From: a virus
Length of the DNA: 24,923 bases
IMG/VR virus record: IMGVR_UViG_3300009074_000030
Location: 1 to 24,923 of that record
Direction: 5' to 3' (one strand)
Under the pieces are notes generated by a model that was not told the origin of the DNA, ran no database searches, and saw only the letters and a list, made by a program, of their open reading frames with translations. Of this stretch, positions 1,297 through 24,356 are shown piece after piece; the stretch's first letter is position 1; the number at the start of each line of letters is the position of its first letter. Both the position numbers and the translations under genes were made by a program.

Positions 1297-1304
1297 TATT
1301 TATA
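1297..1304 (-). promoter_or_regulatory. T4-type late promoter TATAAATA
   Basis: Perfect match to the T4 late -10 element (TATAAATA), 18 nt from the ATG of the basic small protein, with AAGGGA between them. It would be used by gp55-type sigma with the sliding clamp, from established T4 biology. Confidence 0.82.
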
Positions 1305-1652: not shown

Positions 1653-1702
1653 ATCTTACCTTTTCCCCTACAATGATATTTATCGGGTACTGGGTAAGAT
1701 AT
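1651..1702. repeat. 10-bp inverted repeat around a late promoter
   Basis: ATATCTTACC (1651-1660) and GGTAAGATAT (1693-1702) are perfect inverted copies 32 bp apart. Between them is the GATAAATA late promoter; the lower arm covers the ribosome binding site and ATG of the gene at 1652. In read-through RNA the arms can pair and hide the start; in RNA begun at the late promoter they cannot. Confidence 0.7.
1677..1684 (-). promoter_or_regulatory. T4-type late promoter GATAAATA
   Basis: GATAAATA, fitting the NATAAATA variant known from T4-like cyanophages, 24 nt upstream of the tail-anchored coiled-coil gene. It lies between the two arms of a 10-bp inverted repeat, so transcripts begun here lack the upstream arm. 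Confidence 0.75.
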
Positions 1703-5400: not shown

Positions 5401-5408
5401 TATTTATA
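5401..5408 (-). promoter_or_regulatory. T4-type late promoter TATAAATA
   Basis: Perfect late element just after the helicase gene and 21 nt before ATG 5379. It should drive the late operon from the 90-residue protein through the nucleotidyltransferase, the ligase-like protein and onward. A 6-bp hairpin (TACTCA/TGAGTA, 5412-5430) in the end of the helicase gene lies just before it. Confidence 0.85.
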
Positions 5409-7837: not shown

Positions 7838-8275
7838 TCAAATGTTTAGGGAAACTGTAGTAGAATCAAGCACTTCAAGTACAAAGCGTGGTAAGCTTCT
7901 TGTTGTCTGTGCTAGTAAAGTTCGTCCACGGTCATCTGTATATTCAATTGAAAGGCTATAGAGACCTTCCTCAAATGCGCCAGTAGCTACACTATTCATT
8001 ACCAAAGTTGCTGCACCATCTACTATAGGGTCAGCTACCATTGGTCCAGACCAAACTTCAGTATTTTCTGTATTGAAGATACGGGCTGTAATAGTACGAC
8101 CTATTGTAAAATAAGGACGGTGTGTATGCTTGCGGAATGCAAAATAAAGAATAGCATCCCAACCCTTTGAAATCTGAATAGGGTCTGGGTTGTCGCTGTT
8201 TACCCGATATGTGCCTGCTCGGCGATCATTAACGGGACTCGCAATATATGGTGTATGATAAGCATAAACTGTCAT
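7838..8275 (-). CDS. Late phage protein, probably beta-rich, function unknown
   Basis: This encodes 145 residues from ATG at 8275. The frame is open to a TTG at 8341, but the promoter lies within that extension. The protein is rich in beta-forming residues and resembles an Ig-like or jelly-roll phage structural domain: YFTIGRTITARIFNTEN, GLYSLSIEYTDDRGR, and LPRFVLEVLD at the end. It begins MTVYAYHTPYIASPVNDRRAG. No enzyme motif is seen. Its promoter is GATAAATA, separated from the ATG by only GTGGC, and no ribosome binding site is present, so translation of a leaderless late mRNA is predicted. It is divergent from the plus-strand gene at 8324. A head or tail decoration role is a guess from composition and late timing. 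Confidence 0.78.
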   Translation of the reverse strand: MTVYAYHTPYIASPVNDRRAGTYRVNSDNPDPIQISKGWDAILYFAFRKHTHRPYFTIGRTITARIFNTENTEVWSGPMVADPIVDGAATLVMNSVATGAFEEGLYSLSIEYTDDRGRTLLAQTTRSLPRFVLEVLDSTTVSLNI

Positions 8276-8280
8276 GCCAC

Positions 8281-8288
8281 TATTTATC
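8281..8288 (-). promoter_or_regulatory. Late promoter GATAAATA, 5 nt from ATG
   Basis: GATAAATA followed by GTGGC and the ATG at 8275. In T4 the start site falls 5-6 nt after this box, so the mRNA would begin at the ATG. It is back-to-back with the plus-strand box at 8311-8318. Confidence 0.75.
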
Positions 8289-8310: not shown

Positions 8311-8318
8311 TATAAATA
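8311..8318 (+). promoter_or_regulatory. Late promoter TATAAATA, 5 nt from ATG (plus strand)
   Basis: Perfect TATAAATA followed by AACGC and the ATG at 8324; no ribosome binding site fits. It forms a divergent promoter pair with 8281-8288, separated by 22 bp. Confidence 0.82.
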
Positions 8319-8323
8319 AACGC

Positions 8324-8704
8324 ATGACGGTAAATAATCAACTAGAAGAACTATTGGAAGAATATCCATTTCTCACTGTAGCAATCTACGGTAGGAATGA
8401 ATATCTAGGTATTATACAAAATCAGGATGGCAATTTGATTTCAATGTATGTATTTGACGAGATCAAAGATTCAGACTTGCGACGTTTGTTCTTAGAGTAT
8501 GGAGCAGAATGGTGGTGGGAAACAAACCGCTTAATTCCAATCAATATTATATTAGGACAACGGTTCAAGCCATTTCGTGAATCACTACGAACATTTAATA
8601 TCAAGGACTTTGAAATCAAATATGGTCCTAGTGTGTGTCTTAAAGACATCATGCAGAAACGTGTAAAGCGAAAAAATGTTCAGATGATTAGAAAAGTAGA
8701 CTAG
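8324..8704 (+). CDS. Conserved-type late phage protein, only plus-strand gene
   Basis: This encodes 126 residues from ATG at 8324; the frame is open further up, but the promoter lies inside that part. It is aromatic-rich (GAEWWWETNRLIPINIILGQ) with a basic C-terminus (KRVKRKNVQMIRKVD). From memory, proteins starting MTxNxxLExLLExYPF with WWWExNRxIPIN are common in T4-like cyanophages without known function. A perfect TATAAATA late box ends 5 nt before the ATG and there is no ribosome binding site. It is convergent with the DnaE-like gene, and the two stop codons share the palindrome CTAG at 8701-8704. It is the only gene here read on this strand, so early minus-strand transcripts from the uvsW operon would be antisense to it. 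Confidence 0.85.
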   Translation: MTVNNQLEELLEEYPFLTVAIYGRNEYLGIIQNQDGNLISMYVFDEIKDSDLRRLFLEYGAEWWWETNRLIPINIILGQRFKPFRESLRTFNIKDFEIKYGPSVCLKDIMQKRVKRKNVQMIRKVD

Positions 8705-19786: not shown

Positions 19787-19815
19787 CCCATTAGGTTGAT
19801 TAAACGCCGAATATT
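19768..19815. repeat. Nested inverted repeats at the gp32 promoter
   Basis: AATATTCGGC (19768-19777) and GCCGAATATT (19806-19815) are perfect 10-bp inverted copies. Inside them TCAACC (19783-19788) and GGTTGA (19794-19799) form a 6-bp stem with a 5-nt loop. The structure spans the end of the 440-residue gene and the -35 and spacer of the gp32 promoter; it could act as an operator or as the end of the upstream mRNA. Confidence 0.65.
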
Positions 19816-21122
19816 TTGCGCACGTTATATTTATCCATTGACTCGGAGATCTTGCTGATTTCCGACTCTTCTACGTCAACTTTTTCTTCATCAATGTGGT
19901 TTGATTCTGCAACTGTTGCAGAGCGCTTGATCACGTTCAACGCTTGCATAGCCATGTTTAGGTACTTGCCGTCCAAATCATGTACAGCGTCAGACATAAT
20001 CATCAGTAGATTTGATAGTTGATCATCAGCAACGGCAGGTGCCATGAAATCTACTGTCGCAGCGATCTCTGTAGCTGGGTCACGAAACTTACGTGCTGAT
20101 GGGCTCTCAGGATCGTCAAAATCAATTTCACGGTTCAGTGTGATATTGTCTTTGTTCTTTATAACATATCGTGCAAGGTCAGCAACCTGCTTTTCAAGAT
20201 CTTGACGCTTACGGAAACCTTCAATAACACGCGCTACATATGGTAGGCTGTCAGCAATGGTTTCGTCAAAGTATGACATAGTGGTTGCATCTTTTAGTTC
20301 GTCAATACGTTCTTGTGATACATCTTCGCTTTCTATTGTAAAGCTTTCCATCTGTGCTGCATAACCGCGCGTTGTGCTCATGCTCTTGAGGCTACCACGA
20401 AGGTTGCCAATGTGTGCAGTAATCTCTTCGCCAATTTGCGCATCCTCAAAGAAGTCGTTACGCTTGTTCTTGCGGCTGAATTTCTTAAGCTGGTTGAGCT
20501 CTTCCATAATACCGTAAATGTGCTGGCCAAAGTCATCAAATGGTGCGCCGCCTTCTTGTACGTGACGCGCCATTGCCTTTGCGGCAGTGATGTTGGTGCT
20601 AGGAAACTTAAAGCGTTCCCCTTCTGCGTTCTCAATGAAAATGCTTTCGATCTGTCGTGTGCGGGCGCCTCGCTTTTCTTCGTCAACGCTACGTTTGTGC
20701 TTGACGATGATGCGGGCATTACCTAGTTCGTTTACGCTCTTACGCGCTGATCCGTGCCAGCCGCTGAAGCCTTCTTCTACTTTGTTTTTTGCCATGAATG
20801 CGAAGTCCCTTGGTTCAATTGATTTGCCAAACGTCTTAACCGTGTATTCGATAATGTAACGGTTGGCTAGGTTGCGAATTGCTGCTAACATTGGTTTAAC
20901 TGATTTGATGTCGGTGTGGCTGCTGAGGTTGATTACAATTTCGTTTGTTGTCTCATCAACAACATAGTTCACCATCATTTGCAGGTTCTTAGCATAAAAG
21001 CGGCGTGCCTCTGCTGGGTCCGTCGTCTTTTTACCATCGTCTGTAAACAGTACGATTTGGTGTCCAAAACCTTTAATAACTTTGAATAGTTGTTCTGCTA
21101 TGTGCTCTACTGAATTTACCAT
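19800..21122 (-). CDS. Large conserved-type phage protein, leaderless late gene
   Basis: This encodes 440 residues from ATG at 21122; the frame is open further upstream but that part shadows gp17. It starts MVNSVEHIAEQLFKVIKGFG. The first 200 residues contain RNLANRYIIEYTVKTFGKS and a basic stretch IIVKHKRSVDEEKRGARTRQ, then FIENAEGERFKFPSTNITAA followed by KAMARHVQEGG. The C-terminal half is helical and acidic and ends DKYNVRKIFGV. From memory, proteins with RGARSRxI, ETAEGERFLFP and ARAMARHxxEGG occur in T4-like cyanophages next to gp17, with no function known. TATAAATA ends 5 nt before the ATG and there is no ribosome binding site, so the mRNA should be leaderless. Confidence 0.88.
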   Translation of the reverse strand: MVNSVEHIAEQLFKVIKGFGHQIVLFTDDGKKTTDPAEARRFYAKNLQMMVNYVVDETTNEIVINLSSHTDIKSVKPMLAAIRNLANRYIIEYTVKTFGKSIEPRDFAFMAKNKVEEGFSGWHGSARKSVNELGNARIIVKHKRSVDEEKRGARTRQIESIFIENAEGERFKFPSTNITAAKAMARHVQEGGAPFDDFGQHIYGIMEELNQLKKFSRKNKRNDFFEDAQIGEEITAHIGNLRGSLKSMSTTRGYAAQMESFTIESEDVSQERIDELKDATTMSYFDETIADSLPYVARVIEGFRKRQDLEKQVADLARYVIKNKDNITLNREIDFDDPESPSARKFRDPATEIAATVDFMAPAVADDQLSNLLMIMSDAVHDLDGKYLNMAMQALNVIKRSATVAESNHIDEEKVDVEESEISKISESMDKYNVRKIFGV

Positions 21123-21127
21123 ATCAG

Positions 21128-21135
21128 TATTTATA
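21128..21135 (-). promoter_or_regulatory. Late promoter TATAAATA, 5 nt from ATG
   Basis: Perfect TATAAATA followed by CTGAT and the ATG at 21122. It sits 3 nt after the gp17 stop codon. No Shine-Dalgarno sequence is present, so a leaderless late mRNA is predicted for the 440-residue protein. Confidence 0.82.
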
Positions 21136-21138
21136 CAA

Positions 21139-22695
21139 TTATAAAATTCCGACTGGCATCGGTCGGCGTAACTCACTGTCGTCAAAACTGTCTTTGAGAT
21201 CATCAAATACGTCAGCATCATATTTGGCAACTTGCATTGCCATACGCACGGCTAGAATGGTTGCCATAACTAGGTCGTCAGTCTCACCATCTTTAGCTGC
21301 ATAGCTATTACCACGAGCAACGAAAGTTTTGAGCTCACGCATAAGATTCTTGCTACGGATTTTCATTGTTTCTTCTTCTACCCAACGCTTGAGTTTTGCA
21401 CATGATGCAAGTTTGGTAGAGTGCGTTGTGTTGAATCCTTTTCTGTAGCGACGGGAATTACCCTTGCGCTTTGGTTCACTAAGGAATATACCAGGCATAT
21501 TCTCCTCGCCCATTTCGTCAATTGATATAAGTGCAGCTTCACCCAATGTATTATTTTCCACGCTGTAGTAGATTTCACTATTTGGCGCTTCATCTTCAAT
21601 CTCTTCCAAGATCTTTTTCATAATTTTGATTTGCATTTGGATTGGCGTCTTGTTGTGCTGCCACTCTCCAATTTGCCGCATCCCTGGAATTGCAAATACC
21701 TGTATAGCTGCTGGATCGCCACCAGTTCCTAAACTAGGATCAAGTGCGACTAGATATGTTTGATCATCACGCAACCGATCATACCAACGAACTTGCCCAT
21801 GCTTGCGTAAAGGCTCCATACCTAAATCCATCTCACTAAGGAAGATTGAATTGATTAATGTCTCGTCAAACGCAATGAATTCACATTCATGCTCACGGCG
21901 GAAACGTTCGTCTCCAATCTTGCCACGTTCAGCATCTGCCCATGCCTGGTCACGATCTGGATGTTTGTCCCATTTAGTAATGAATGGGCGGAAGCCGTTT
22001 ACCCCAAGTTCTGTTTCGTTGCCATATTCATCAATACGCTTGTTAGCTGACTTCCAAATTTGAGCAAACTGGTCATCGTCTTGGTTAGGTGTTGATGTAA
22101 TAATACATTTACCACCAGTTGAAAGAGTTGGTGAGATAGATGTCCAAAATTCCTCTGCAACACGTGGTGGAACGAATGCAAATTCGTCTAAGTAAACTAG
22201 TGAAAGTGACAAACCACGTCCTGTATTCTCGGTCGTAGCTTGCGCAATAATTTTGCTGCCGTTATCAAAAGTAATAGAACCTTTGTTGTATTCTGTGGCG
22301 CCTGCACGTATAAAATCTGGGCAACTCTCATACATATAACGTAGACGTGCCATAATTTCTCCAGCGCCGTCACGTTTGTGTGCTGCAATTAAGATTGTAC
22401 TGTCAGGCTTGAACATTGCAAACCATAGTAAGTATGCTGCCGCACAAGTAGATTTGCCAGTCTGACGTGACAGTAGACTGATTGAGTATCGGTAATCGTT
22501 GTATGAATTAATAAGACCTTCCTGATAATCAAAAAGGGTAAAGGCCATCCTACCTTTAGTAGGATGCTGAATGTAACAGTAATTACGTATGAAGTATAGA
22601 GGATTGACTGAGCAAAGTGCTAATTCCCTGAGCTCATTCTGTGACATACGTTCCGTAGTATAGGGACGTTTGACTAGGTCGGTGTTTACGGACAT
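21139..22695 (-). CDS. 17: Terminase large subunit gp17
   Basis: This encodes 518 residues (T4 gp17 610). It is the packaging motor ATPase and headful nuclease that docks on the portal. Motifs: Q-motif area TLFDYQEGLI, Walker A SRQTGKS (76-82), Walker B LSLVYLDEFA (about 164-173), coupling motif TSTPN at about 200-204, nuclease Asp in YLVALDPSLGTGGDP (Asp319), VENNTLGEAA (second acidic residue), and DGETDDLVMATILA (final Asp). The ribosome binding site AGGA is 8 nt before the ATG at 22695. In T4, gene 16 directly precedes gene 17; here three genes intervene. A perfect 8-bp hairpin lies inside the early coding region. Confidence 0.96.
   Translation of the reverse strand: MSVNTDLVKRPYTTERMSQNELRELALCSVNPLYFIRNYCYIQHPTKGRMAFTLFDYQEGLINSYNDYRYSISLLSRQTGKSTCAAAYLLWFAMFKPDSTILIAAHKRDGAGEIMARLRYMYESCPDFIRAGATEYNKGSITFDNGSKIIAQATTENTGRGLSLSLVYLDEFAFVPPRVAEEFWTSISPTLSTGGKCIITSTPNQDDDQFAQIWKSANKRIDEYGNETELGVNGFRPFITKWDKHPDRDQAWADAERGKIGDERFRREHECEFIAFDETLINSIFLSEMDLGMEPLRKHGQVRWYDRLRDDQTYLVALDPSLGTGGDPAAIQVFAIPGMRQIGEWQHNKTPIQMQIKIMKKILEEIEDEAPNSEIYYSVENNTLGEAALISIDEMGEENMPGIFLSEPKRKGNSRRYRKGFNTTHSTKLASCAKLKRWVEEETMKIRSKNLMRELKTFVARGNSYAAKDGETDDLVMATILAVRMAMQVAKYDADVFDDLKDSFDDSELRRPMPVGIL
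22547..22567. repeat. Perfect 8-bp hairpin inside gp17 coding sequence
   Basis: CATCCTAC and GTAGGATG are perfect inverted copies with a 5-nt loop (CTTTA on the plus strand), about 130 nt after the gp17 start, in codons for QHPTKGRMA. Its role is unknown. Confidence 0.55.
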
Positions 22696-24348: not shown

Positions 24349-24356
24349 TATTTATC
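24349..24356 (-). promoter_or_regulatory. T4-type late promoter GATAAATA
   Basis: GATAAATA overlapping the gp16 stop codon (GGA TAA), 22 nt before ATG 24327. The short leader carries GGAG within the palindromic AGGAGACTCCT. Confidence 0.72.

Follow-up and report, generated by a model that had tools for sequence, protein, structure and literature searches.

Many late genes in a lineage of large T4-superfamily phages carry a T4-type late promoter box exactly 5 nt before the ATG, and a gp55-dependent promoter is very probably placed there such that the first transcribed base is the A of the start codon. We give this lineage-specific leaderless design a probability of roughly 0.88; we infer the mode of translation and, from T4, the exact start site. 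By the counts given below, such genes would make up about one-quarter of the late genes in this lineage. The window analyzed, the whole stretch of 24,923 nt, is a 24.9-kb fragment of a large marine T4-superfamily phage. Judged by its terminase, its closest named relatives are PA5oct (55.7%, tblastn), Phosso, and Atu_ph07, and a near-identity DNA search of a phage collection with the window returned no match.

The T4-type late promoter −10 element was taken as the octamer TATAAATA, with a variable first base. The original prediction described a 440-residue gene downstream of gp17 with this box, the spacer CTGAT, an ATG, and no ribosome binding site, and this arrangement was confirmed at 21135–21120 on the minus strand (Table 1). 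No Shine-Dalgarno-like run was present within 30 nt upstream of ATG 21122 (−). The distance from the gp17 stop to the start of the 440-codon frame is 16 nt, and an in-frame TTG lies upstream of the ATG, within gp17. The PA5oct homologue of the 440-aa protein, EST35_0206, is annotated as found in the virion by ESI-MS/MS, and no solved structure matched the 440-aa protein when searched. The gene order gp17, 440-aa gene, SSB, and UvsX is common to the jumbo phages 121Q and GAP32; the SSB of 121Q in that order carries only the annotation “structural protein.”

Table 1 Late promoter boxes and adjoining genes in the window (window coordinates)
Feature	Position	Strand	Basis
T4-type late promoter box TATAAATA	21128..21135	−	Exact match
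5-nt spacer CTGAT, equivalent to T4 positions −5 to −1	21123..21127	−	T4 box from −13 (PMC2988020)
ATG start codon, predicted +1 of mRNA	21120..21122	−	Spacing, sequence comparison
440-aa virion structural protein gene (phrog_13484), between gp17 and gp32/SSB	19800..21122	−	PHROG E 5e-40
Terminase large subunit gp17, upstream neighbor	21139..22695	−	PHROG E 3.5e-127; tblastn 55.7% to PA5oct
Late box GATAAATA, second putative leaderless gene, spacer GTGGC	8281..8288	−	Box search
145-aa frame 5 nt past box 8288–8281, without PHROG match	7838..8275	−	
Late box TATAAATA, third putative leaderless gene, spacer AACGC	8311..8318	+	Box search
126-aa gene (phrog_11637) 5 nt past box 8311–8318	8324..8704	+	PHROG E 2.8e-33
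Late box GATAAATA, leadered gene, 21-nt leader with AGGAG, ATG 24327	24349..24356	−	
Late box TATAAATA, leadered gene, 21-nt leader, ATG 5379, phrog_11854 virion protein	5401..5408	−	
Late box GATAAATA, leadered gene, 24-nt leader, ATG 1652	1677..1684	−	
Late box TATAAATA, leadered gene, 17-nt leader, ATG 1279	1297..1304	−	

The window contains nine ATAAATA boxes, seven of which precede genes, while two lie within frames. An ATG follows exactly 5 nt past three of the nine (21135 (−), 8288 (−), and 8311 (+)), and the claim that three of seven late promoters share this spacing is therefore right for the gene-preceding boxes. As had also been predicted, the other four (24356, 5408, 1684, and 1304, all on the minus strand) have normal leaders, 17–24 nt long with G-rich Shine-Dalgarno sequences. 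The homologue of the 126-aa gene (phrog_11637) in the related record G001 is likewise preceded by its box at 5 nt. Nine boxes are unremarkable in number (5.0 expected; at least nine in 11 of 100 shuffles), whereas the chance of finding three of nine at distance 5 is approximately 1e−5, by hand calculation from the control rate given below. The spacing, unlike the number of boxes, is the unusual feature of the window. The two boxes inside frames (NATAAATA; 19828–19835 (−) and 881–888 (−)) have no gene start just downstream and are possibly chance occurrences. The putative leaderless genes starting at 8275 (−) and 8324 (+) stand back to back with their boxes 22 nt apart, and divergent 5-nt pairs also occur in two related records, G003 (114162/114179) and G004 (37681/37721).

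A genome-wide count of box-to-ATG distances had been proposed, with a flat distribution as the outcome that would speak against a leaderless class. Because the window is a fragment, we ran the count on its clade relatives, namely 80 IMG/VR loci with a related gp17 together with extended regions from fourteen of these records (2.18 Mb), and found a peak at 5 nt. Distance was counted from ATAAATA to whichever ATG first opened a frame of at least 40 codons, and frames were assigned mechanically. The loci include close kin and some that overlap; identical contexts were removed and a family-level count guards against the remainder. The distances were bimodal, with 97 of 431 at exactly 5 nt, 7 at 4 nt, and 6 at 6 nt, and a broad second mode from 17 to approximately 30 nt that carries Shine-Dalgarno sequences. 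Distances of 9–15 nt were almost empty, which agrees with this picture, as a leader of that kind would have no room for a Shine-Dalgarno sequence. Counted over all boxes in the clade, 97 of 591 (16%) had the 5-nt spacing, approximately 30-fold above the control: seven AT-rich control heptamers gave 1–10 sites at distance 5 without a peak, and an ATG-opened frame stood at that distance in 27 of their 5,164 sites (approximately 0.5%). The 5-nt sites span 41 unrelated protein families, compared with three to four families at distances 4 or 6. In the fourteen long records, the pattern ATAAATANNNNNATG had 65 matches, against 6 for the reversed pattern (summed rows). The peak across the clade strongly supports the proposal of two late classes, leadered and leaderless.

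The T4 late box begins at position −13 (PMC2988020) and ends at −6, five bases before +1, so that an ATG at distance 5 would lie at +1. In other words, the first base transcribed from a T4 late promoter is the sixth past the box, and the mRNAs of the 5-nt genes should begin with AUG. An independent but indirect pointer to +1 is the pyrimidine-purine step, which at leadered promoters is commonest five bases past the box (0.48 in the clade and 0.65 in cyanophages, and also in the T4 set), although at the offset one base further upstream the value reaches 0.42 in the clade (0.14 in cyanophages). A T or C stood just before the ATG at 96 of the 97 leaderless sites, compared with 127 of 244 leadered genes, and a Shine-Dalgarno match of at least 4 nt was found in 18% of the 5-nt genes versus 85% of the leadered ones. 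The start codons at distance 5 were ATG in 90 cases, GTG in 2, and TTG in none in the clade, and ATG in 33 cases with no GTG or TTG in the HTVC type; this nearly exclusive use of ATG is what leaderless messages predict (PMC3616915). The structure of the 5′ end differed only slightly between the two designs.

Orthologues of both the 440-aa protein and gp17 occur in the two designs and begin at the same methionine, as in the shared N-terminus of MVNSVEHIAEQLFKVIKG (5 nt) and MTYSVDIIAQQLFKTIKG (21-nt leader). In a quick tree of the 440-aa protein, which has some long branches, the design switches at least three times among well-supported branches. Because orthologues switch design, membership in the leaderless class is not fixed by function. 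In the SAR11 phage HTVC008M, all seven 5-nt ATGs checked are the annotated starts; these genes encode the tape measure, a DNA end protector, the tail tube cap, two baseplate proteins, CsgF, and a 2OG-Fe oxygenase. The PA5oct gene EST35_0222, whose product is annotated as seen in the virion by mass spectrometry, has its start at a 5-nt site. The gp13 gene of HTVC008M (NC_020484, 59714) has a late box 8 nt before its annotated ATG, corresponding to a predicted 3-nt leader.

The starts in the clade are predicted from sequence, and together with the in-frame TTG within gp17 this leaves some room for the 5-nt ATG to be a chance or annotation artifact, the true start being a downstream methionine with a normal leader. 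Such an error is very improbable, because leadered orthologues with good Shine-Dalgarno sequences begin at the homologous methionine, the HTVC008M annotators independently chose the same ATGs, and the peak spans 41 families while being absent from the control motifs. That absence also weighs against reading ATAAATA beside the ATG as a translation enhancer or an AT-rich start context instead of a promoter. The clade is indeed AT-rich (38% GC), and AT-rich start contexts are described in other bacteria (PMC3160421); however, the identical box, which matches the gp55 consensus, stands 17–40 nt upstream of leadered genes, and none of 198 lies at 5 nt in cyanophage relatives that share the box, which makes this the least probable of the readings considered.

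The box could also be a promoter that merely adds RNA, with the 440-aa gene translated by coupling or reinitiation from gp17 on longer transcripts. The short distance from the gp17 stop is compatible with this, as is the general closeness of leaderless promoters to the gene upstream (median gap 21 nt versus 38 nt for leadered promoters). However, 29 of the 97 leaderless sites lack a nearby gene upstream, and the divergent leaderless genes of the window and of records G003 and G004 have no upstream gene to couple with. Coupling also leaves the exact 5-nt peak and the pyrimidine at −1 unexplained, and we consider it improbable, though somewhat less so than a misplaced start. Transcription starting on the A of the ATG remains the preferred reading.

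The 5-nt class extends beyond the clade. HTVC008M has 9 of 27 distances at 5 nt, its gp17 relatives have 25 of 150, and the pelagimyophage Mosig has 8 sites versus none in the control. Among PA5oct-type relatives (loci L437–L516), distances of 4, 5, 6, and 7 nt were found at 13, 46, 13, and 32 sites, respectively, or 104 of 215 in total. This looser spacing may reflect 1–2-nt leaders or scatter of the start site, and the start site may coincide less exactly with the ATG in these phages. In 42 of 52 cases, their presumed orthologue of the 440-aa gene, with a similar N-terminus, is of the near-zero type. For PA5oct itself, the pattern matched 8 times versus 4 in the control, a difference that is weak alone. 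The 5-nt spacing was seen at 0 of 198 sites in cyanophage relatives with the same box, at 3 of 241 in Straboviridae, and at 0 of 36 in T4, and none was seen in the parts of 121Q and Atu_ph07 that were sampled. By these counts, the predicted leaderless design is a property of particular lineages and not of T4-type promoters generally. Host class was rejected as the sole explanation, since the alphaproteobacterial phages Caulobacter Cr30, Sinorhizobium phiM12, and Rhizobium P10VF lack 5-nt sites.

During replication, gp55, gp33, and the gp45 clamp are required for the activity of T4-type late promoters. A gp55-type late sigma factor (phrog_12791) is encoded in the clade records G001 (2.7e−88) and G003 (3.9e−94), and a match to this gp55-like family is also present in PA5oct, 121Q, HTVC008M, and Mosig; no gp55 gene lies in the 25-kb window. 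Two phage-encoded components of the translation machinery were considered as determinants of the class and rejected. A gene for ribosomal protein bS21 is present in most clade records of at least 75 kb, as well as in HTVC008M, Mosig, and PA5oct. However, Atu_ph07, Phosso, and Vibrio phage 2.275.O, in which the class is scarce or missing, encode bS21 too. Translation factor IF3 affects how leaderless messages are translated in E. coli, and the clade encodes an IF3, but so do 121Q, GAP32, Atu_ph07, Phosso, and 2.275.O, while HTVC008M, Mosig, and PA5oct have none. The IF3 and bS21 genes overlap end to start in record G001, a close relative (L102:10195–10716 and L102:10709–10954), and lie close together in five other clade records (G002, G004, G007, G008, and G009), but the distribution of this pair among phages does not follow that of the leaderless class. 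The IF3 match in G002 (C1:112378–112626 (−)) has one in-frame TAA within the matched stretch. The nearest cellular matches of the phage IF3 are from Rhizobiales, at 47% identity, which is too weak to name a host.

In the mechanism that we propose, the gp55-type sigma factor would start RNA on the A of the AUG, giving an mRNA with a 5′-terminal AUG and neither leader nor Shine-Dalgarno sequence, and this AUG would be bound by a 70S ribosome for leaderless initiation. Leadered genes would use the same promoter start position, followed by a leader of approximately 12 nt or more with a Shine-Dalgarno sequence. One possible benefit is compactness, as promoter and start would fit into a very short intergenic gap; besides having the shorter median gap given above, 31% of the leaderless promoters, versus 6%, overlap the gene upstream. 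Another would be gating: read-through RNA offers a leaderless gene no ribosome binding site, so that such a gene would be translated only from its own late transcript.

The original prediction also suggested that the two classes might be separated in time or in yield, and the sequence patterns speak to the second of these. Leaders or gaps with Shine-Dalgarno sequences precede the sheath, tube, and portal genes in the clade and the sheath, tube, portal, and major capsid genes in HTVC008M, while terminase, baseplate wedge, tape measure, and DNA end protector genes are often leaderless. The ranking of some parts as low-copy follows general knowledge of T4 protein copy numbers, and the division by yield is suggestive, being post hoc and drawn from few gene families. 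It is doubtful, though conceivable, that there are two translation programs, one led by Shine-Dalgarno sequences for bulk proteins and one leaderless for low-copy parts, between which phage IF3 and bS21 could shift ribosomes; the first could include sheath, tube, capsid, and portal, and the second terminase, baseplate wedge, tape measure, and neck.

Late transcription in T4 is a textbook system, and its messages are routinely assumed to have leaders with ribosome binding sites. If the abundant marine and freshwater relatives have a major class of leaderless late genes, gene calling in these phages must change; such a class also suggests that leaderless translation is supported by SAR11 and other hosts while they are infected. 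Genes that have a leader in one phage and none in a related one provide a clean natural comparison, and it becomes possible to test directly whether a leaderless start makes a gene strictly dependent on the late promoter of its own. Leaderless T4-type late genes were not reported in any paper found by a full-text search of the literature, which covered mainly papers outside subscription journals. The Melnitz paper lists 15 late promoters (PMC9004378), and the part of it that was covered holds no remark on their spacing.

With the gp55/gp45-dependent late promoters of T4, whose box runs from −13, the clade shares the octamer, the predicted start position, and, in two of its records, a gp55-like sigma gene; however, T4 itself has no 5-nt gene and Straboviridae have few, whereas in the clade the 5-nt genes are a major class. 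The pelagimyophages HTVC008M and Mosig and the PA5oct-type jumbo phages have the same late-gene class, more loosely spaced in the PA5oct type. Leaderless mRNA is familiar from lambda cI. In Actinobacteria and Deinococcus, TANNNT lies approximately 12 bp before the ATG of leaderless genes (PMC3160421), and in Sinorhizobium all 171 leaderless start sites are AUG (PMC3616915). The genes described here resemble such bacterial and phage leaderless mRNAs in having a −10 element whose short distance to the ATG is fixed, no Shine-Dalgarno sequence, and almost exclusively AUG starts. They differ in that the element is a phage late sigma box and not the host housekeeping −10, the genes serve the virion and packaging, and the transcription starts are predicted.
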